DNA from: Thauera sp.
GTDB lineage: Bacteria > Pseudomonadota > Gammaproteobacteria > Burkholderiales > Rhodocyclaceae
Reading direction: 5' to 3'
NCBI GenBank assembly: GCA_030603925.1
Contig: JAUVWV010000004.1
Span: 1 to 38,474, forward strand
Length of the DNA stretch: 38,474 bases
How positions within the stretch are numbered: the first letter of the stretch is position 1; each line of letters opens with the position of its first letter. The notes under the pieces were generated by a model. It worked only from the letters and a program-made list of their open reading frames with translations. It made no database searches and had not been told where the DNA came from. Position numbers and translations under genes: made by a program. Shown piece after piece: positions 25,119 to 32,039 of this stretch.

Positions 25119-25916
25119 ATGGCTAGCATTGCGATTGGCGACATTCAGGGCTGTTATGCGCAGTTTTCCCGGCTACTGGAGAAAATCCGCTTCGATCCGG
25201 CGGCCGACCGCCTGTGGCTGGTCGGCGACCTGGTCAATCGTGGCCCGGAATCCTTGCAGGTGTTGCGCCTGGTTCGCAGCCTGGGCGATGCGGCTACCGT
25301 GGTGCTGGGCAATCACGACCTCTACCTGCTGATGATCGATGCGGGATTCACGCGGCGCGGCAAGGACGACACCCTGGCACGCATCCTGGAAGCACCCGAC
25401 CGGGAGGAGTTGCTCCACTGGCTGGCGCACCGCAGCATGCTGCATGTCGACGCCGACCGTGTGCTGGTGCATGCCGGCCTGCCGCCGTCGTGGAGCGTGG
25501 CGCAGGCGCGGAGCCTTGCTGCGGAGGTCGAGGCGGCCTTGCGCGGGGATCAGCGGCGCAAGTTCCTGCTGCACCTGCAGGGTGACAAGCCGGAGCGCTG
25601 GTCGGACGAGCTGAAGGGCTGGGATCGCCTGCGCTTCATCGTCAATGCGCTGACCCGGATGCGTTTCTGCACGCCGGACGGACGCCTGGCCCTGCGTGCG
25701 AAGGGACCGCCGGAGCGCGCGCCGCTCGGCACCGTCCCCTGGTTCCGCGTGCCGGGGCGGGCGAGCGCGGCGCACACCGTGGTCTGCGGCCACTGGTCTG
25801 CGCTGGGTTTCTACCGCGAACAGGGCTTGATCGCACTCGACTCGGGCTGTGTGTGGGGCGGCAAGCTGACCGCAGTGCGGCTCGACGACGGCACGGCCTG
25901 GCAGGTGACCGGCTGA
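25119..25916 (+). CDS. apaH: Symmetrical bis(5'-nucleosyl)-tetraphosphatase ApaH
   Basis: 265 residues. It hydrolyses Ap4A to two ADP and can remove Np4 RNA caps. Metallophosphatase motifs are in order: IGDIQGCY (7-14), LVGDLVNRGP, VLGNHDLYLL, VHAGLPPSW, and a late GHWSALG. The start MASIAIGDIQG is the usual one; the longer open frame upstream runs antisense to waaA and is rejected. No good ribosome binding site precedes the ATG. A TAAAAAT stretch (25105-25111) ends 7 nt before it, so a leaderless transcript is possible. The 3' end overlaps the convergent acyltransferase by 106 bp. Confidence 0.94.
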   Translation: MASIAIGDIQGCYAQFSRLLEKIRFDPAADRLWLVGDLVNRGPESLQVLRLVRSLGDAATVVLGNHDLYLLMIDAGFTRRGKDDTLARILEAPDREELLHWLAHRSMLHVDADRVLVHAGLPPSWSVAQARSLAAEVEAALRGDQRRKFLLHLQGDKPERWSDELKGWDRLRFIVNALTRMRFCTPDGRLALRAKGPPERAPLGTVPWFRVPGRASAAHTVVCGHWSALGFYREQGLIALDSGCVWGGKLTAVRLDDGTAWQVTG

Positions 25917-26680
25917 GGCGGCAGCGGCTGCAGCCTGAGCGCGCATAGATCGGCGATCTGTGCGCGTGCGTGCGTGGCAAGCAGCTTGCGTTCGGTGGTG
26001 GCCGGATCGGTGTCGAGCGGGCTGGCGACCTGCAGGCGCGCAATGATCGTGCGTGTGCCGATGATCGCCGAGAAGCACTCCCCCAGCGACAGGTCGCCGT
26101 CGTAGGCCGGGGCGCGCGTATGCGCGCCGTCCGGGCTGTGGTAGGACAGCGCCACCGGCTGCACCGGACGGCCGGCGGCGATGGCCGGCTGCAGCAGCGC
26201 GGCGTGAAAGTGCAGCACGTGGCTGCCGTCGGTGGTGGTGCCTTCCGGGAAGACCGCGACGTTGCGTCCGGCGTCGAGCAGCGCGGCGATCTCGGCGTTG
26301 ACGATGCGTGCGTGGCCGCGGCTGCCGCGCCGCAGGAAGACCGTCTCGCTCTTGGCCGCCAGCCAGCCGGCCACCGGCCAGGCGCGCACCTCGGCCTTGG
26401 AGACGAAGGCGGACGGCGCCAGCGCATTGATCACGAAGATGTCCACCCAGGAGATGTGGTTGGCCACCAGCATGCAGCCGGGGGCAACCGGCAGGCCTTC
26501 CACCTGCAGGCGGATGCCCATGATGCGCAGCAGCGCCCGCGACCAGCGTTGACGCAGGGCGAGCTGGCGGGCCTTGCCGCAGAAGGGGAAGACCGTGGCA
26601 ATGGTGAGGACGCCCTGCACGAGGTGCGCGACGGTGCGCAGCCTGCGCCAGGCGCGCAGCGGCAGCGGGCAGCGGTTCAT
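25811..26680 (-). CDS. olsA: Lysophospholipid/lyso-ornithine-lipid acyltransferase (PlsC family, OlsA-like)
   Basis: 289 residues from the ATG at 26680; the frame is open further upstream but that part overlaps olsB. Membrane-associated acyltransferase with the HX4D motif in NHISWVDI, FLRRGSRGHA (block II), FPEGTTTDG (block III) and VQPVALSYH (block IV). Its start lies 29 bp behind a GNAT N-acyltransferase of the OlsB type, which favours the O-acylation step of ornithine lipid (OlsA) over ordinary PlsC; plain PlsC remains possible. The last 35 residues or so are Pro/Ser-rich, lack family motifs and are encoded antisense to the apaH 3' end. Confidence 0.82.
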   Translation of the reverse strand: MNRCPLPLRAWRRLRTVAHLVQGVLTIATVFPFCGKARQLALRQRWSRALLRIMGIRLQVEGLPVAPGCMLVANHISWVDIFVINALAPSAFVSKAEVRAWPVAGWLAAKSETVFLRRGSRGHARIVNAEIAALLDAGRNVAVFPEGTTTDGSHVLHFHAALLQPAIAAGRPVQPVALSYHSPDGAHTRAPAYDGDLSLGECFSAIIGTRTIIARLQVASPLDTDPATTERKLLATHARAQIADLCALRLQPLPPQPVTCQAVPSSSRTAVSLPPHTQPESSAIKPCSR

Positions 26681-26709: not shown

Positions 26710-27468
26710 TCAGTCCTTGCGTCCCATGAAATGTCGCGCGTACTTGCCGTCCACCTTGCTCATCGGCATCAGGATCGGCAGGTCGGCGGTGTTGAAGTCG
26801 GGGTCCCAGGCCGGTTCGCCGCAGATCCACGCGCCGGCGCGCAGATAGCCCTTGATCAGCGGCGGCGCGTCGGCCGGCAGGTCGCCGCGCAGGCGTTCGA
26901 GCGGCAGCGGGCAGCGCGGGAACACGCGGTACTCCGGCGGCGAGAGATGGCTGTCCTGCAGGCGATTATACAGACTGGCCGCGGTGTGGCCGCCGTCGGC
27001 CATGCTCACCGAGGCGCAGCCGATCAGGTAGTCGTACCAGTTCTCCTGCATGTAGCGCGCAAGGCCGGCCCACAGCAGAGCGATCACCGCGCCGCTGCGG
27101 TACTCCGCATCGATGCACGAGCGGCCGATCTCGACGATGCGGCTGCGCAGGTGCTGCAGACGGGTGAGGTCGAACTCGTTCTCAGAGTAATAGCCGCCCA
27201 CGCGCCGTGCCGCGGCGGGTGACAGGATGCGGTAGGTGCCGACGATGCGTCCGGCGTCTTCGTCGCGCACGATCAGGTGCTCGCAGAAGGGGTCGTAGAT
27301 GTCGCGGTCGACGCCCGGCGTGCGGCAGGACAGGCGGGCGCCCATCTCCTCGGCGAACACGCGGTAGCGCAGTTTCTGCGCTTCCAGTATTTCGGTGTCG
27401 CAGGTGGCCAGGCCGACATGCAGGTTGCGGCCGGTGCGCTGGGCGGATTGCGTGGTTTTCTGCAGCAT
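26710..27468 (-). CDS. olsB: L-ornithine N(alpha)-acyltransferase (GNAT, OlsB-like)
   Basis: 252 residues from the ATG at 27468, which has AAGGAG upstream; an upstream ATG at 27498 is rejected. A GNAT-like autoinducer-synthase-fold protein with LRYRVFAEEMGA, DPFCEHLIVRD, GTYRILSP, EIGRSCIDAEYR and a C-terminal LIKGYLRAGAWICGEPAWDP. These match the OlsB family, which attaches a 3-hydroxy fatty acid from ACP to ornithine, giving lyso-ornithine lipid. The acyltransferase just downstream would complete ornithine lipid. These phosphorus-free lipids replace phospholipids under phosphate limitation in several proteobacteria, and Pho-like half-sites lie upstream. Confidence 0.85.
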   Translation of the reverse strand: MLQKTTQSAQRTGRNLHVGLATCDTEILEAQKLRYRVFAEEMGARLSCRTPGVDRDIYDPFCEHLIVRDEDAGRIVGTYRILSPAAARRVGGYYSENEFDLTRLQHLRSRIVEIGRSCIDAEYRSGAVIALLWAGLARYMQENWYDYLIGCASVSMADGGHTAASLYNRLQDSHLSPPEYRVFPRCPLPLERLRGDLPADAPPLIKGYLRAGAWICGEPAWDPDFNTADLPILMPMSKVDGKYARHFMGRKD

Positions 27469-27523
27469 GGCGGACTCCTTGTTCCGGGTGTGCCCCATTC
27501 TCGAAAGCCGGTATTGCGCTCGC

Positions 27524-27552
27524 GTGACAGGGCGGTTACGCCACGGTGAACG
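27524..27552 (-). promoter_or_regulatory. Pho-box-like repeats upstream of olsB
   Basis: Reading the minus strand toward olsB: CGTTCAC (27552-27546), GCGTAAC (27541-27535) and CTGTCAC (27530-27524), each starting 11 bp after the last. The PhoB half-site consensus is CTGTCAT with a 4-bp spacer. A CAATAC stretch about 8 nt further on could be the -10. The match is by eye. Confidence 0.5.
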
Positions 27553-27570
27553 GCGCGCATCCCGGCCGGC

Positions 27571-27610
27571 GCTTCACCGTGCCGTCATCGCGGCGTCACG
27601 AAGTTGTCGT
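27571..27610 (+). promoter_or_regulatory. Pho-box-like repeats upstream of the glycosyltransferase
   Basis: Four 11-bp-phased half-sites: GCTTCAC (27571), CCGTCAT (27582), GCGTCAC (27593), TTGTCGT (27604). The last ends 23 bp before the ATG at 27634. The outer halves of both arrays also form a 9-bp inverted repeat, CACGGTGAA (27542-27550) and TTCACCGTG (27573-27581). TCACGA-AGTTG-TCGTGA (27596-27612) is a further overlapping palindrome. Confidence 0.5.
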
Positions 27611-27633
27611 GAAGGGTGCGCAGGATGCGGGGC

Positions 27634-28854
27634 ATGGATACCCCACTCGTTCTCCAGCATCTCGCAGGCGCCGAACGCCAGCTGCGCGTGGCCGTGGTCA
27701 CCGAAACCTATCCGCCCGAGGTCAACGGCGTGGCGATGACCACCGGGCGCCTGGTCGACGGCATGCTGCGCCTGGGGCACCAGGTGCAGCTGGTGCGGCC
27801 GCGCCAGGGCGAGACGGACCACCCGGGCTCGAGCGCGGGCTTCGAGGAGGTGTTGTCGCGCGGGCTGCCGATTCCGCGCTACAAGCACCTCAAGATGGGG
27901 CTGCCGGCACGCGCCGTACTGCAGCGCATGTGGGCGGTGCGCCGGCCCGACGTGGTGCAGGTGGTCACCGAGGGGCCGCTGGGCTGGTCGGCGGTGACGG
28001 CCGCGCGCCGCTTGCGCCTGCCGGTGGTCACCGAGTTCCACACCAACTTCCACAGCTACAGCAGCTACTACGGCATGGGCTGGCTGAAGCAGCCGGTGGA
28101 GGCCTGGCTGCGCCGCTTCCACAACAAGGGCGACCTCTGCCTGGCGCCGACCGCCGAACTGGCCGGCCAGCTGATGGCGCGCGGGATGCGCAGGGTGGAG
28201 GTGGTGGCGCGCGGCGTCGATACGCGCCTGTTCAGCCCGGCGCGCCGTTCCGCCGAGTTGCGCGAATCCTGGGGGGCTGCGCCGCACACCCTGGTGGCCA
28301 TCGTGGTCGGGCGCATGGCGCCGGAGAAGAACCTGGGGCTGGCGGTGCGTGCTTTCGACCGCTTGAAGGCCCAGCTGGGCGGCGATGCGCGGCTGGTGCT
28401 GGTGGGCGACGGGCCGGCGCGTGCCGCCCTGCAGGCCGAGCGCCCGGATCTGTGCTACGCCGGGATGCGTACCGGGGAGGATCTGGCGGCGCACTATGCC
28501 TCGGCCGATCTGTTCCTCTTTCCCAGCACCACCGAGACCTTCGGCAACGTGGTCACCGAGGCCCTGGCGAGCGGCCTGCCGGTGGTCGGCTACGACTACG
28601 CCGCCGCCGCCGAGCATGTGCGCGACGGCCACAACGGCTGTCTGGCCCCCCTGGGCGACGAGGCCGCCTTCGTCGCAGCGGCGCTGCGCATGGGGAGTGC
28701 GGCCCTGCGTGCGCAACTGGCCGGCAAGGCGCGTGACAGCGTGCTGAGCGTGGACTGGGATGCGGTGACCCGCAGCCTGGCCGGCCTGCTGGGCGAGGTG
28801 GTGCTGGCTCACGAGCGGCGCAATGCGCCGGATGCGCGTACGGCGACTGCCTGA
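27634..28854 (+). CDS. GT4-family glycosyltransferase (possible glycolipid synthase)
   Basis: 406 residues from the ATG at 27634 (GTG at 27616 and ATG at 27625 are alternatives). A GT-B fold: the N-terminal domain begins RVAVVTETYPPEVNGVAMTT and includes VTEFHTNFHSYSSYYGMG; the C-terminal nucleotide-sugar domain has VVGRMAPEKNLGLAVRAFD, LVLVGDGPARA and the EX7E motif in TTETFGNVVTEALASGLP. It resembles GDP-mannose or UDP-sugar dependent glycosyltransferases of the MgtA/Agt type that glycosylate diacylglycerol or uronic-acid lipids. Neither acceptor nor sugar is fixed by sequence. It is divergent from olsBA and shares the Pho-like region, consistent with phosphate-regulated glycolipid synthesis. 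Confidence 0.85.
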   Translation: MDTPLVLQHLAGAERQLRVAVVTETYPPEVNGVAMTTGRLVDGMLRLGHQVQLVRPRQGETDHPGSSAGFEEVLSRGLPIPRYKHLKMGLPARAVLQRMWAVRRPDVVQVVTEGPLGWSAVTAARRLRLPVVTEFHTNFHSYSSYYGMGWLKQPVEAWLRRFHNKGDLCLAPTAELAGQLMARGMRRVEVVARGVDTRLFSPARRSAELRESWGAAPHTLVAIVVGRMAPEKNLGLAVRAFDRLKAQLGGDARLVLVGDGPARAALQAERPDLCYAGMRTGEDLAAHYASADLFLFPSTTETFGNVVTEALASGLPVVGYDYAAAAEHVRDGHNGCLAPLGDEAAFVAAALRMGSAALRAQLAGKARDSVLSVDWDAVTRSLAGLLGEVVLAHERRNAPDARTATA

Positions 28855-28880: not shown

Positions 28881-28910
28881 GCGGGTTTCCTACAACGACC
28901 CGTGCCCGTC

Positions 28911-29861
28911 ATGTCCATTCTCGTCTGCGGTTCCATCGCCTACGACACGATCATGGTCTTCCATGACCGTTTCAAGCACCACATCCTGCCCGAGCAGATC
29001 CACATCCTCAACGTGGCCTTCCTGGTGCCCGACATGCGGCGCGAGTTCGGCGGCTGTGCGGGCAACATTGCCTACAATCTGAAGCTGCTCGGCGCCGATC
29101 CGCTGATCATGGCGACGGTGGGCGACGATGCCGATCCCTACCGCTATCGCCTGGAGCGCCTCGGCCTGCGCCAGGACCATGTGCGGCGCGTGGCGGAGAC
29201 CTTCACCGCGCAAGCCTTCATCACCACCGACCTGGACGACAACCAGATTACTGCCTTCCATCCCGGGGCAATGAACCATTCGCACCTCAACCGGGTGCAG
29301 GACGCGGCGGGCGTCACGCTGGGCATCGTGGCGCCGGACGGGCGCGACGGCATGCTCGGCCACGCCGCGCAGTTCGCCGAGGCGGGCGTGCCCTTCATCT
29401 TCGATCCGGGCCAGGGGCTGCCGATGTTCTCCGGCGACGAGTTGCTGCACTGCCTGCAACTGGCGCGCTACTGCTCGGTCAACGACTACGAGGCACGCCT
29501 GCTGAGCGAGAAGACCGGCCGTTCGCTGGAGGAACTGGCCGGGCTGGTCGATGCGCTGATCGTCACGCTGGGCGCGGAGGGTTCGCGGATCTACGCGGAG
29601 GGTGCGCAGATCGTCATTCCCTGCGTCGAGCCGGACGAGGTGGTCGACCCCACCGGTTGCGGCGATGCCTATCGTGCCGGCCTGCTGTACGGCATCTCGA
29701 ACGGCTATGACTGGGTGCGCAGCGGGCGGCTGGCCTCGCTGATGGGATCGATCAAGATCGCCCATCGCGGGGGACAGAACCACGCACCGACGCGTGACGA
29801 GATTGCCGCCCGTTACCGGGCGGCCTTTGGGGAAGAGCTATGGCAGGAGGCGGAAGCCTGA
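28911..29861 (+). CDS. PfkB-family carbohydrate/nucleoside kinase
   Basis: 316 residues from the ATG at 28911 (GTG at 28902 possible). A ribokinase-fold kinase: N-terminal VCGSIAYDTIM, the GGCAGNIAYNLKLLG substrate loop, and the C-terminal DPTGCGDAYRAGLLYG signature with catalytic Asp and anion hole. The layout (FGGCAGNIAYNL, HPGAMNHSHL) resembles adenosine-kinase-like PfkB proteins of betaproteobacteria. The substrate is unproven; adenosine, ribose or another sugar is possible. The 3' end overlaps the next gene by 22 nt, implying coupling. Confidence 0.88.
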   Translation: MSILVCGSIAYDTIMVFHDRFKHHILPEQIHILNVAFLVPDMRREFGGCAGNIAYNLKLLGADPLIMATVGDDADPYRYRLERLGLRQDHVRRVAETFTAQAFITTDLDDNQITAFHPGAMNHSHLNRVQDAAGVTLGIVAPDGRDGMLGHAAQFAEAGVPFIFDPGQGLPMFSGDELLHCLQLARYCSVNDYEARLLSEKTGRSLEELAGLVDALIVTLGAEGSRIYAEGAQIVIPCVEPDEVVDPTGCGDAYRAGLLYGISNGYDWVRSGRLASLMGSIKIAHRGGQNHAPTRDEIAARYRAAFGEELWQEAEA

Positions 29862-30313: not shown

Positions 30314-30328
30314 ACGGGGTGCCGTTCA
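30311..30328. terminator. Hairpin holding both stop codons of convergent genes
   Basis: TGAACGG-GGTG-CCGTTCA. The left arm starts with the lipoprotein stop (30311-30313); the right arm ends with the dgkA stop in the other direction (30326-30328). No T-run on either side, so terminator activity is uncertain. Confidence 0.35.
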
Positions 30329-30718
30329 ACCCAGCAGCACCAGCGCCCACACCGCGGCCAGGTTGAGCAGGGACAGCAGTACGGCGGCGCTGCCGATGTC
30401 CTTGGCGCGCTTGGCCAGGCTGTGCCGCTCCAGCGACACGCGGTCGACCGTTGCTTCGATGGCGGAGTTGAGCAGTTCGACCACCAGCACCAGCAGGGTG
30501 CTGCCGATCAGCAGGGCCTTGCCGATGCCGCTGGTCGGAACGAACAGCGCAGCCGGGATCAGGATGGCCGCCAGCAGGCATTCCTGGCGGAAAGCGTCCT
30601 CGTGGGTGAAGGCCGCGCGCAGCCCGGCAAGCGAGTAGCGGAAGGCGTTCCAGATGCGGGCCAGGCCGGTCTTGCCCTTGAACGGGCTTTCCTGCGGCGG
30701 GCTGTGCGGGTGCTCCAT
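30326..30718 (-). CDS. dgkA: Diacylglycerol kinase DgkA
   Basis: 130 residues from the ATG at 30718. A small three-helix membrane enzyme that phosphorylates diacylglycerol to phosphatidate, recycling lipid head-group by-products. ARIWNAFRYSLAGLRAAF, EDAFRQE and the signature VVELLNSAIEATVDRVS are visible, with hydrophobic segments LLAAILIPAALFV, ALLIGSTLLVLVV and AAVLLSLLNLAAVWALVLL. The ORF is open further upstream but the start at 30718 fits family length. It lies about 95 bp after the DUF3426 gene on the same strand. Confidence 0.95.
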   Translation of the reverse strand: MEHPHSPPQESPFKGKTGLARIWNAFRYSLAGLRAAFTHEDAFRQECLLAAILIPAALFVPTSGIGKALLIGSTLLVLVVELLNSAIEATVDRVSLERHSLAKRAKDIGSAAVLLSLLNLAAVWALVLLG

Positions 30719-30812
30719 GGGGTGGCGATATCCTGTGTCTGAGGGCTGCAGTCGAAACGGCCTTTGTACCGGCCGGTGGTTACCGTGCCGTGACCTTCCG
30801 CACGGAGCCGGC

Positions 30813-32039
30813 TCAGGGGTAGAAGACGTAGATCCGAGAGCCGGTGGCCTCGACCGAGGGGGCATCGAAATGCAGTTCCACCGCCTGCTCGCGGCCTGCC
30901 GGAAAGCCGGCGCGCAGCTTGGCGGTTTCCGCGTGCGCCCACTCGAAGGGGTCGAGCACGCGGCGTACCACCGCGCGGTCGCGCGCATCGGTCAGGGTCA
31001 GCTCCAGGTGGGGCCAGGCCTGCGGGTAGGCGGCATTGTTGCGGATGCTGGCGAACAGCACGAAGCGACCCGGGATGCGCGGGTCGGACTGCAGGTCCGA
31101 GGCGTCGATGCCGATGCGCTCTGCGTCGCGCGGCAAGGGCAGGCTGCAGCCGAATTGCGCGCATGCCGCCTGGTAGAGCGGACGCAGGGCCGGCACGCTG
31201 CGCGTGATCTCCTGGCGGAAGAGATAGGCCGACTGCACGGTCAGCGCCCCCAGCATGAGACCGACCCCCAGGCTCCACAGCCACTTGCGCCCGGCGCCTG
31301 CGGCCGGTTCCGGGCCGTAGCGCGCGTCGAGGTGTTCGAGATCCGCCGGGGCGGGGCTGCGCCACTCGTCGGGCAGTTCGTCGCGGGCCTCCTCGCGAGT
31401 GGGCGGGGGCGGGGGCGCGTGGTCGGGCGCGCCCGGCGGCAGGGGGGACTCGTCTTCCGTCCCGGGGAGCTCCGTATCGGCCGAGGAGGCGCGGTAATCG
31501 CCCGGCTCCGTCCGCCCGCCGCCCGCCGCCGCGAGGGAAGCGGCAAAGGAGGGCGTGGGGGCGAGGGGCGTTGCTGCCGCGCGTGCGGGAGGCACGTCGA
31601 ACGCGCTGTCTGGCGCCTCGTCGGCAGGCGTCTCGTGCACCTCCGGCAGCGCGCCTGCCTGGGTCTTGAGCTGCTCGCGCGGCGAGCGCCAGACCTCCGG
31701 AATCTCGAAATCGAGCGCCGGATCGTCGTCGGTTCCGGTGGAGGCCGGCTCCGGCCCGGTCGCTTCGAAAGCGGCCGCCTGCCGTTCCTCAGGCGCAGGC
31801 TCGGTGTCGGAGGCCGCGACATCGATTTGTTGCGGTGCCGGGCCGCGGCGGAAGGCGTCGTCGATGGGCGCTGCGGGCACGGCGGTCGTGGCTGGGGTGC
31901 CCGCCTCGGTGAGCAGATGATCGAGTGCGTTGAACGGGTTGAAGCAGTGCCCGCAGCGGACTTCGCCATGGCGTGCGCGAAGCTGCTCCGGCCGGACCCG
32001 GAACACCGTCTGGCAGGCCGGGCAGCGGGCGAACATCAT
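30813..32039 (-). CDS. Zinc-ribbon DUF3426 membrane protein
   Basis: 408 residues. An N-terminal MJ0042-type zinc ribbon (CPACQTVF ... VRCGHC, residues 6-32) is followed by a long, acidic, Pro/Ala-rich and probably disordered region (about 45-265), one membrane helix (WLWSLGVGLMLGALTVQSAYLF, about 270-290) and a C-terminal periplasmic DUF3426 domain (about 300-408) with CAQFGCSLP. Function is unknown; the gene is almost always next to prmA in betaproteobacteria. Its start overlaps the prmA stop by 4 nt (ATGA). Confidence 0.9.
   Translation of the reverse strand: MMFARCPACQTVFRVRPEQLRARHGEVRCGHCFNPFNALDHLLTEAGTPATTAVPAAPIDDAFRRGPAPQQIDVAASDTEPAPEERQAAAFEATGPEPASTGTDDDPALDFEIPEVWRSPREQLKTQAGALPEVHETPADEAPDSAFDVPPARAAATPLAPTPSFAASLAAAGGGRTEPGDYRASSADTELPGTEDESPLPPGAPDHAPPPPPTREEARDELPDEWRSPAPADLEHLDARYGPEPAAGAGRKWLWSLGVGLMLGALTVQSAYLFRQEITRSVPALRPLYQAACAQFGCSLPLPRDAERIGIDASDLQSDPRIPGRFVLFASIRNNAAYPQAWPHLELTLTDARDRAVVRRVLDPFEWAHAETAKLRAGFPAGREQAVELHFDAPSVEATGSRIYVFYP

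Follow-up and report, generated by a model that had tools for sequence, protein, structure and literature searches.

Divergent Pho-box-like arrays between olsBA and a GT4 glycosyltransferase gene of Thauera sp.: candidate PhoB-dependent promoters for lipid remodelling

Genes and candidate promoter arrays of the olsBA-GT4 locus

The window analyzed here is the whole stretch of 38,474 nucleotides from Thauera sp. (assembly GCA_030603925.1, contig JAUVWV010000004.1, positions 1 to 38,474), and all positions refer to it unless otherwise indicated. On the minus strand lie olsB, which encodes an ornithine N-acyltransferase-like protein (26710–27468), and an olsA-like gene for a lyso-ornithine lipid O-acyltransferase (25811–26680). 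The best NCBIfam models for both proteins are the OlsB and OlsA ornithine-lipid models, with scores below the equivalog cut-offs (NF052554, 163 bits against 350; NF052552, 147 bits against 300), and the Pfam domains Acetyltransf_5 and Acyltransferase, respectively, are found above cut-off. The open reading frame of olsB begins with an ATG at 27498 that is overlapped by the predicted -10 element; the start is therefore likely the next Met codon, at 27468, which a Shine-Dalgarno sequence (AAGGAG, 27475–27480) precedes. On the plus strand lies a gene for a GT4 glycosyltransferase, putatively Agt-like (27634–28854; Pfam Glyco_transf_4 and Glycos_transf_1 above cut-off), with a pfkB-family kinase gene on its 3' side (28908–29861, plus strand; Pfam PfkB) that is possibly cotranscribed. 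A dgkA-like diacylglycerol kinase gene (30326–30718, minus strand), assigned from a Pfam DAGK_prokar match of 117 bits on 30326–30901, is convergent with this pair.

The intergenic region contains, at 27497–27626, two divergent arrays, each of four half-sites in exact 11-bp steps, with a gap of 18 bp between them. The array directed towards olsB reads, on the minus strand and from the distal to the proximal half-site, CGTTCAC (27546–27552), GCGTAAC (27535–27541), CTGTCAC (27524–27530) and GCGCAAT (27513–27519), the last two within a match to the Pho matrix described below. The array directed towards GT4 reads, on the plus strand, GCTTCAC (27571–27577), CCGTCAT (27582–27588), GCGTCAC (27593–27599) and TTGTCGT (27604–27610), again with the last two inside a matrix match. 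The preliminary description had listed seven of these half-sites, and all seven are present at the 11-bp period; the eighth, GCGCAAT, had been overlooked. The two distal half-sites have the look of an inverted repeat, which fits the divergent orientation of the arrays.

In both arrays a -10-like hexamer is located 10 bases past the core of the last half-site. GAGAAT (27497–27502, minus strand) is the predicted -10 element of olsBA, with a spacing equal to that in the pstS promoters of relatives, and CAGGAT (27621–27626, plus strand), which lies 7 nt 5' of the ATG, is predicted as that of GT4 from the matrix match and the upstream regions of relatives. Direct CTGTCAT-type half-sites with an 11-bp period, as in Pho boxes, thus occur four per strand, and each array takes the place of a -35 element at a fixed distance of 10 nt from the -10 element, as in pstS. 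A generic sigma-70 scan returned no -35/-10 pair in 27400–27700, as is expected of PhoB-dependent promoters.

Matrix scores and conservation in relatives

The sites were scored with a 34-bp matrix (half-site, 4, half-site, 10, -10) trained on pstS promoters from other genomes of the family, with the sequences of the Thauera genome itself absent. Of 25 training promoters 23 fitted, and the two that did not (L097 and L098) were kept out, as were three pstS promoters adjacent to olsB or a GT4 (L085, L088 and L089). The olsB site (27497–27530, minus strand) scores 15.7 bits and ranks first among the 76,882 positions of the window; the GT4 site (27593–27626, plus strand), with a weak -10 element, scores 7.1 bits and ranks second. 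Both Pho-box-like arrays proposed in the preliminary description therefore outscore the rest of the window with a PhoB-type matrix, and the PhoB reading gains from their retention with the respective genes in relatives and from the pfkB genes used as a negative control, of which none of 44 distinct upstream regions holds a site of at least 5. A sample of 20 contigs from this genome (102,319 bases; 203,318 positions) contains one site of at least 7 (9.2 bits) and none of at least 10; because one sampled position outscores the GT4 site, the matrix score by itself does not settle the latter. The pfkB upstream regions and the sampled contigs replaced a broader set of upstream controls, which was dropped when 35 of 213 scored at least 7; those regions had been picked around pho and lipid genes and were, consequently, not clean.

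Half-sites are short and degenerate, and the arrays could be chance assemblies in GC-rich sequence. We regard this as extremely improbable: among 20,000 dinucleotide-preserving shuffles of 27469–27633, none contained three consecutive half-sites on either strand and none reached matrix scores of at least 7 on both strands, and the runs conserved in relatives occur at 11 bp only. A pattern of three half-sites, picked post hoc, occurs three times in the 3.5-Mb genome; the arrays described here account for two of these matches, and the reversed control has none. A stricter first pattern found no match in the genome, as it required T as the second base of every half-site. The third match (L151:1501-1527; G000:C238:19528-19554) precedes a small lipoprotein-like open reading frame located between arsenite-exporter-like and ArsA-like genes, all named by eye, and may point to a link between phosphate and arsenate.

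A match to olsB was found in 51 of 61 genomes of the family, and the best 30 loci of these 51 were taken as the promoter set. All 30 score at least 5.5 bits; 23 carry at least three successive half-sites at 11 bp and 18 at least four, and runs of three were found in none of the 30 at any spacing of 6–10 or 12–16 bp. Upstream of GT4, runs of three half-sites at 11 bp occur in 37 of 80 titled records (L154–L233); the other 43 show no such run with the motif used, and the spacings of 6–10 and 12–16 bp each gave none in the 80. Among 30 family GT4 upstream regions that were fetched, 18 score at least 5 and 12 below 5. Five GT4 genes without a site lie 26–72 nt behind a labelled gene (L054, L063, L065, L067 and L069); two others close behind a labelled gene yet have one (L062, 6.7; L064, 6.4), and L068 has neither a site nor a labelled gene close upstream. 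Operon position accounts for only part of the GT4 genes that lack a site. The in-operon GT4 genes (L061–L065, L067 and L069) were considered as a clean negative control and rejected, given the sites in L062 and L064 and a further one in L061 (6.0).

The order olsA, olsB (minus), gt4, pfkB (plus), dgkA (minus) is found in 8 of the 80 titled records (Pseudothauera, Azoarcus, Denitromonas and one metagenome-assembled genome, MAG), and the colinear order dgkA, gt4, pfkB, olsB, olsA in 6 of them (Azospira oryzae and MAGs); colinear orders, some of them lacking a match to dgkA or olsA, also occur in Thiobacillus and other listed lineages. Inversion of gt4-pfkB converts one order into the other. The olsB array is also present in relatives where GT4 is not the divergent neighbor, and the GT4 array persists without olsB in that position in L055, L156, L167 and L203. 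Because each occurs without the other as divergent neighbor, the arrays can be read as two separate promoters brought together, and the head-to-head arrangement is most simply explained as two older Pho promoters united by a single inversion of gt4-pfkB, which we infer to have run from the colinear to the divergent order. In L203 (4001-5373, Azoarcus sp. L1K30), GT4 is matched in two blast pieces, possibly owing to a frameshift or an insertion; three successive half-sites still stand upstream, and the fetched flank has no olsB match. In two MAGs titled Moraxellaceae and Bordetella parapertussis (L160 and L214), the dgkA-gt4-pfkB loci resemble those found in MAGs of Rhodocyclaceae and Burkholderiales, and the labels of the two may be wrong.

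The dgkA gene adjoins gt4 in many relatives. In the window, a possible Pho promoter with two half-sites (30763–30796, minus strand) lies 44 nt 5' of its ATG and ranks third with 6.3 bits. Of 13 titled relatives inspected, 8 have a site of at least 5 ahead of dgkA, and over all dgkA upstream regions the tally is 15 of 57; some relatives have none, such as L155, L158, L164 and L165. Some members of the clade may thus have dgkA among their Pho genes.

A predicted leaderless GT4 messenger

When 100 GT4 upstream regions are aligned at the ATG, with no matrix involved, GTMAY cores accumulate at -60/-62 (42 occurrences), -49/-51 (17) and -38/-40 (47), and last half-sites of the GTCG[CT], GCAG[CT] or GTCTT type, to which TTGTCGT belongs, at -27/-29 (39); these regions come from related genomes and the counts are not independent. 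The half-sites are, accordingly, locked to the ATG near positions -27, -38, -49 and -60. This distribution bears on the proposal that the olsB array alone is functional and that nearby half-site-like sequence gave rise to the GT4 array as a by-product. The lower score of the GT4 site (7.1 bits) and the GT4 orthologues without a site speak for it, but half-sites that peak at fixed distances from the ATG in 11-bp steps, and GT4 arrays that exist without olsB as divergent neighbor, make it very improbable.

In 107 distinct upstream regions, 70 GT4 promoters score at least 5, and in 50 of these the -10 element lies 6–8 nt from the first in-frame start codon. By contrast, at least 46 of 58 first starts of olsB are located 23–35 nt from the -10 element, and a Shine-Dalgarno sequence precedes olsB in 41 of 64 cases when the most upstream ATG is used and in 59 of 64 with the nearest. 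Such a sequence was counted upstream of 12 of 101 GT4 genes; as the counts for pfkB (7 of 42) and dgkA (13 of 51) are also low, its absence is weaker evidence for a leaderless messenger than it looks. A C at position -1 of the GT4 ATG (70%) was discarded as a start-site signature, the values for pfkB (60%) and dgkA (59%) being nearly equal. The plcP genes are mixed, with 6–11 nt from the -10 element to the start in 13 of 23 and 9 nt in this genome.

The GT4 messenger is thus predicted to be leaderless, with its 5' end at or next to the ATG. We lean slightly towards a broader proposal, in which GT4, and plcP in part, would be PhoB targets whose promoter runs directly into the coding sequence, with up to four half-sites, a 10-nt gap, the -10 element and an AUG at +1 or no more than 2–3 nt away. 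The messenger would be leaderless and in most cases lack a Shine-Dalgarno sequence. This arrangement would be conserved in Rhodocyclaceae and other Betaproteobacteria, and it may allow synthesis of the phosphorus-free glycolipid when phosphate starvation lowers the number of ribosomes or alters initiation; olsB, with the same regulator, would have a normal leader. As such, leaderless messengers are ordinary, since 171 leaderless starts have been mapped in Sinorhizobium (PMC3616915). Among the listed literature on leaderless messengers and PhoB or Pho boxes, phosphate starvation or Betaproteobacteria, titles and the opening lines of abstracts gave no report of such an arrangement.

Partner genes and the predicted PhoB-controlled lipid exchange

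The same genome encodes PhoB (369 bits; cut-off 296) and PhoR (427; 334), both above the NCBIfam cut-offs, and a PstS-family protein (266; 207). The matrix scores 22.7 bits upstream of a plcP-like gene, 18.4 upstream of the PstS-family gene, 16.6 upstream of a second GT4 and 15.9 upstream of phoB. The phoB site, at a distance of 147 nt from the start, has a poor second half-site; phoR follows phoB, with no Pho-type site of its own noted. The plcP-like gene and the second GT4, each with its own Pho-type site, are located on other contigs (C113 and C158). The product of the former, a phosphoesterase putatively named PlcP from its neighborhood, matches lpxH-type models below cut-off and shares 76% identity with the Metallophos protein encoded in a gene cluster of a relative (G002; L101:429-15203). 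Within about 15 kb, that cluster combines phoB (above cut-off) and pstS with olsB, dgkA, the PlcP-like gene and both GT4s; phoB and pstS are separated by genes that resemble phoU and pstBAC by order only. It also holds a PAP2 phosphatase and constitutes a natural system for the study of the pathway. PhoB-like open reading frames near olsB were found in two further genomes (G019, L117; G022, L109), with 57–59% identity to PhoB of this genome. Across 61 genomes, GT4 (at least 47% identity, one partial hit counted) and plcP (at least 50%) occur together in 34, GT4 only in 6, plcP only in 5 and neither in 16 (Fisher p 4e-6, uncorrected for relatedness).

OmpR-family regulators are numerous in this genome (84 matches to the PhoB model), and some may bind 11-bp repeats. 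The arrays could then be bound by another such regulator and the operons answer another signal, a reading to which the spacers between the half-sites, GC-rich instead of AT-rich, lend some weight. We judge it quite improbable, in that pstS promoters were the training set of the matrix that detects the arrays and the motif is also found here ahead of the PstS-family and plcP-like genes and, in a poorer form, of phoB.

The two best NCBIfam models of the GT4 enzyme are lipid glycosyltransferases, both below cut-off: N-acetylglucosaminyl phosphatidylglycerol synthase (153 bits against 480), followed by monoglucosyldiacylglycerol synthase. The AlphaFold model (mean pLDDT 81.7) has GT-B enzymes as best PDB matches, so that the GT-B fold accompanies the Pfam GT4 domains, as in Agt; among solved structures, MshA and BshA are the closest and PimA and WaaG rank lower, a comparison that does not name the acceptor. 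Because a PlcP-like phosphoesterase, dgkA and pst are recurrent neighbors, the most likely role, by analogy, is glycosylation of diacylglycerol, as by Agt. Under the same PhoB control, the acceptor could instead be phosphatidylglycerol, lipid A or an exported polysaccharide, for example, as the top NCBIfam model and the nearest structures might suggest. This is unlikely considering the second NCBIfam model and the neighbors of GT4 in relatives, olsB among them, and a glycosylated phospholipid would save no phosphate.

Taken together, we consider it highly probable that the arrays are two divergent PhoB-dependent promoters and that phospholipids are replaced by ornithine lipid and a glycolipid, as in the OlsBA and PlcP-Agt pathways. 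PhoB binding, induction, the donor and acceptor of GT4 and the lipid exchange are inferred from the computed sites, their spacing and conservation, the gene families and the Pho-type sites of the partner genes. In PhoB activation of the E. coli type, phosphorylated dimers occupy the half-sites and sigma-70 RNA polymerase is recruited. Upon phosphate starvation, PhoR would phosphorylate PhoB, whose dimers would line up on the four direct half-sites of each promoter, in the -35 position and 10 nt from the -10 element, and recruit the polymerase in both directions. Leftward transcription of olsBA would yield ornithine lipid; rightward transcription would supply an Agt-like GT4 that adds a sugar to diacylglycerol, freed from phospholipids by the PhoB-controlled PlcP-like phosphoesterase encoded elsewhere. 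Surplus diacylglycerol could be recycled by the product of the nearby dgkA, which has a possible, weak Pho site, and the net outcome would be phosphorus-free lipids in place of phospholipids. The compact lipid-remodelling module of the preliminary description finds support in gene content and neighborhoods (OlsBA, a lipid-type GT4, dgkA, the plcP-like gene and pst), but it is not self-contained, as the plcP-like gene and the second GT4 lie on other contigs.

In Sinorhizobium, olsB is reportedly under PhoB control, with a Pho box upstream of the gene like the one predicted here. For Burkholderia sensu lato, predicted Pho boxes upstream of olsB are likewise reported (PMC7814305). The present locus has four half-sites and differs in olsA adjoining olsB and in the back-to-back promoter of a glycosyltransferase. 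PlcP-Agt lipid renovation is described for Pseudomonas aeruginosa (PA3219, PA3218 and PA0842; PMC8528852) and for marine bacteria (PMC4796936), and combines a Pho-box-associated phosphoesterase with GT4-type glycosyltransferases, two of them in P. aeruginosa, which also makes ornithine lipid under phosphate stress (PMC8528852). Unlike in those systems, one GT4 is here divergent from olsBA over shared intergenic DNA, the plcP-like gene and second GT4 are unlinked, GT4 (and plcP in part) is predicted to be leaderless, and the lineage is Betaproteobacteria. With the Agt enzymes of Agrobacterium and SAR11 (PMC4796936; PMC8231724), the GT4 presumably shares the transfer of a sugar to diacylglycerol under phosphate starvation, a likeness proposed at the level of role. 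The head-to-head layout and the conserved, promoter-encoded leaderless GT4 messenger that we predict are new here; the system is otherwise of a known kind.

A search of the open literature found no paper on Pho boxes and membrane lipids in Rhodocyclaceae or on ornithine lipid in Thauera. Rhodocyclaceae and their relatives (Azoarcus, Thauera and Zoogloea) are common in soils and wastewater plants. The arrays locked to the ATG offer a clear case for the study of leaderless translation under phosphate stress. If our reading is true, a starving bacterium could turn on ornithine lipid and a sugar lipid together, and Rhodocyclaceae and relatives would swap phospholipids for these two lipids under PhoB, a saving of phosphorus that is testable in Azospira oryzae, Pseudothauera or other relatives that can be cultivated.
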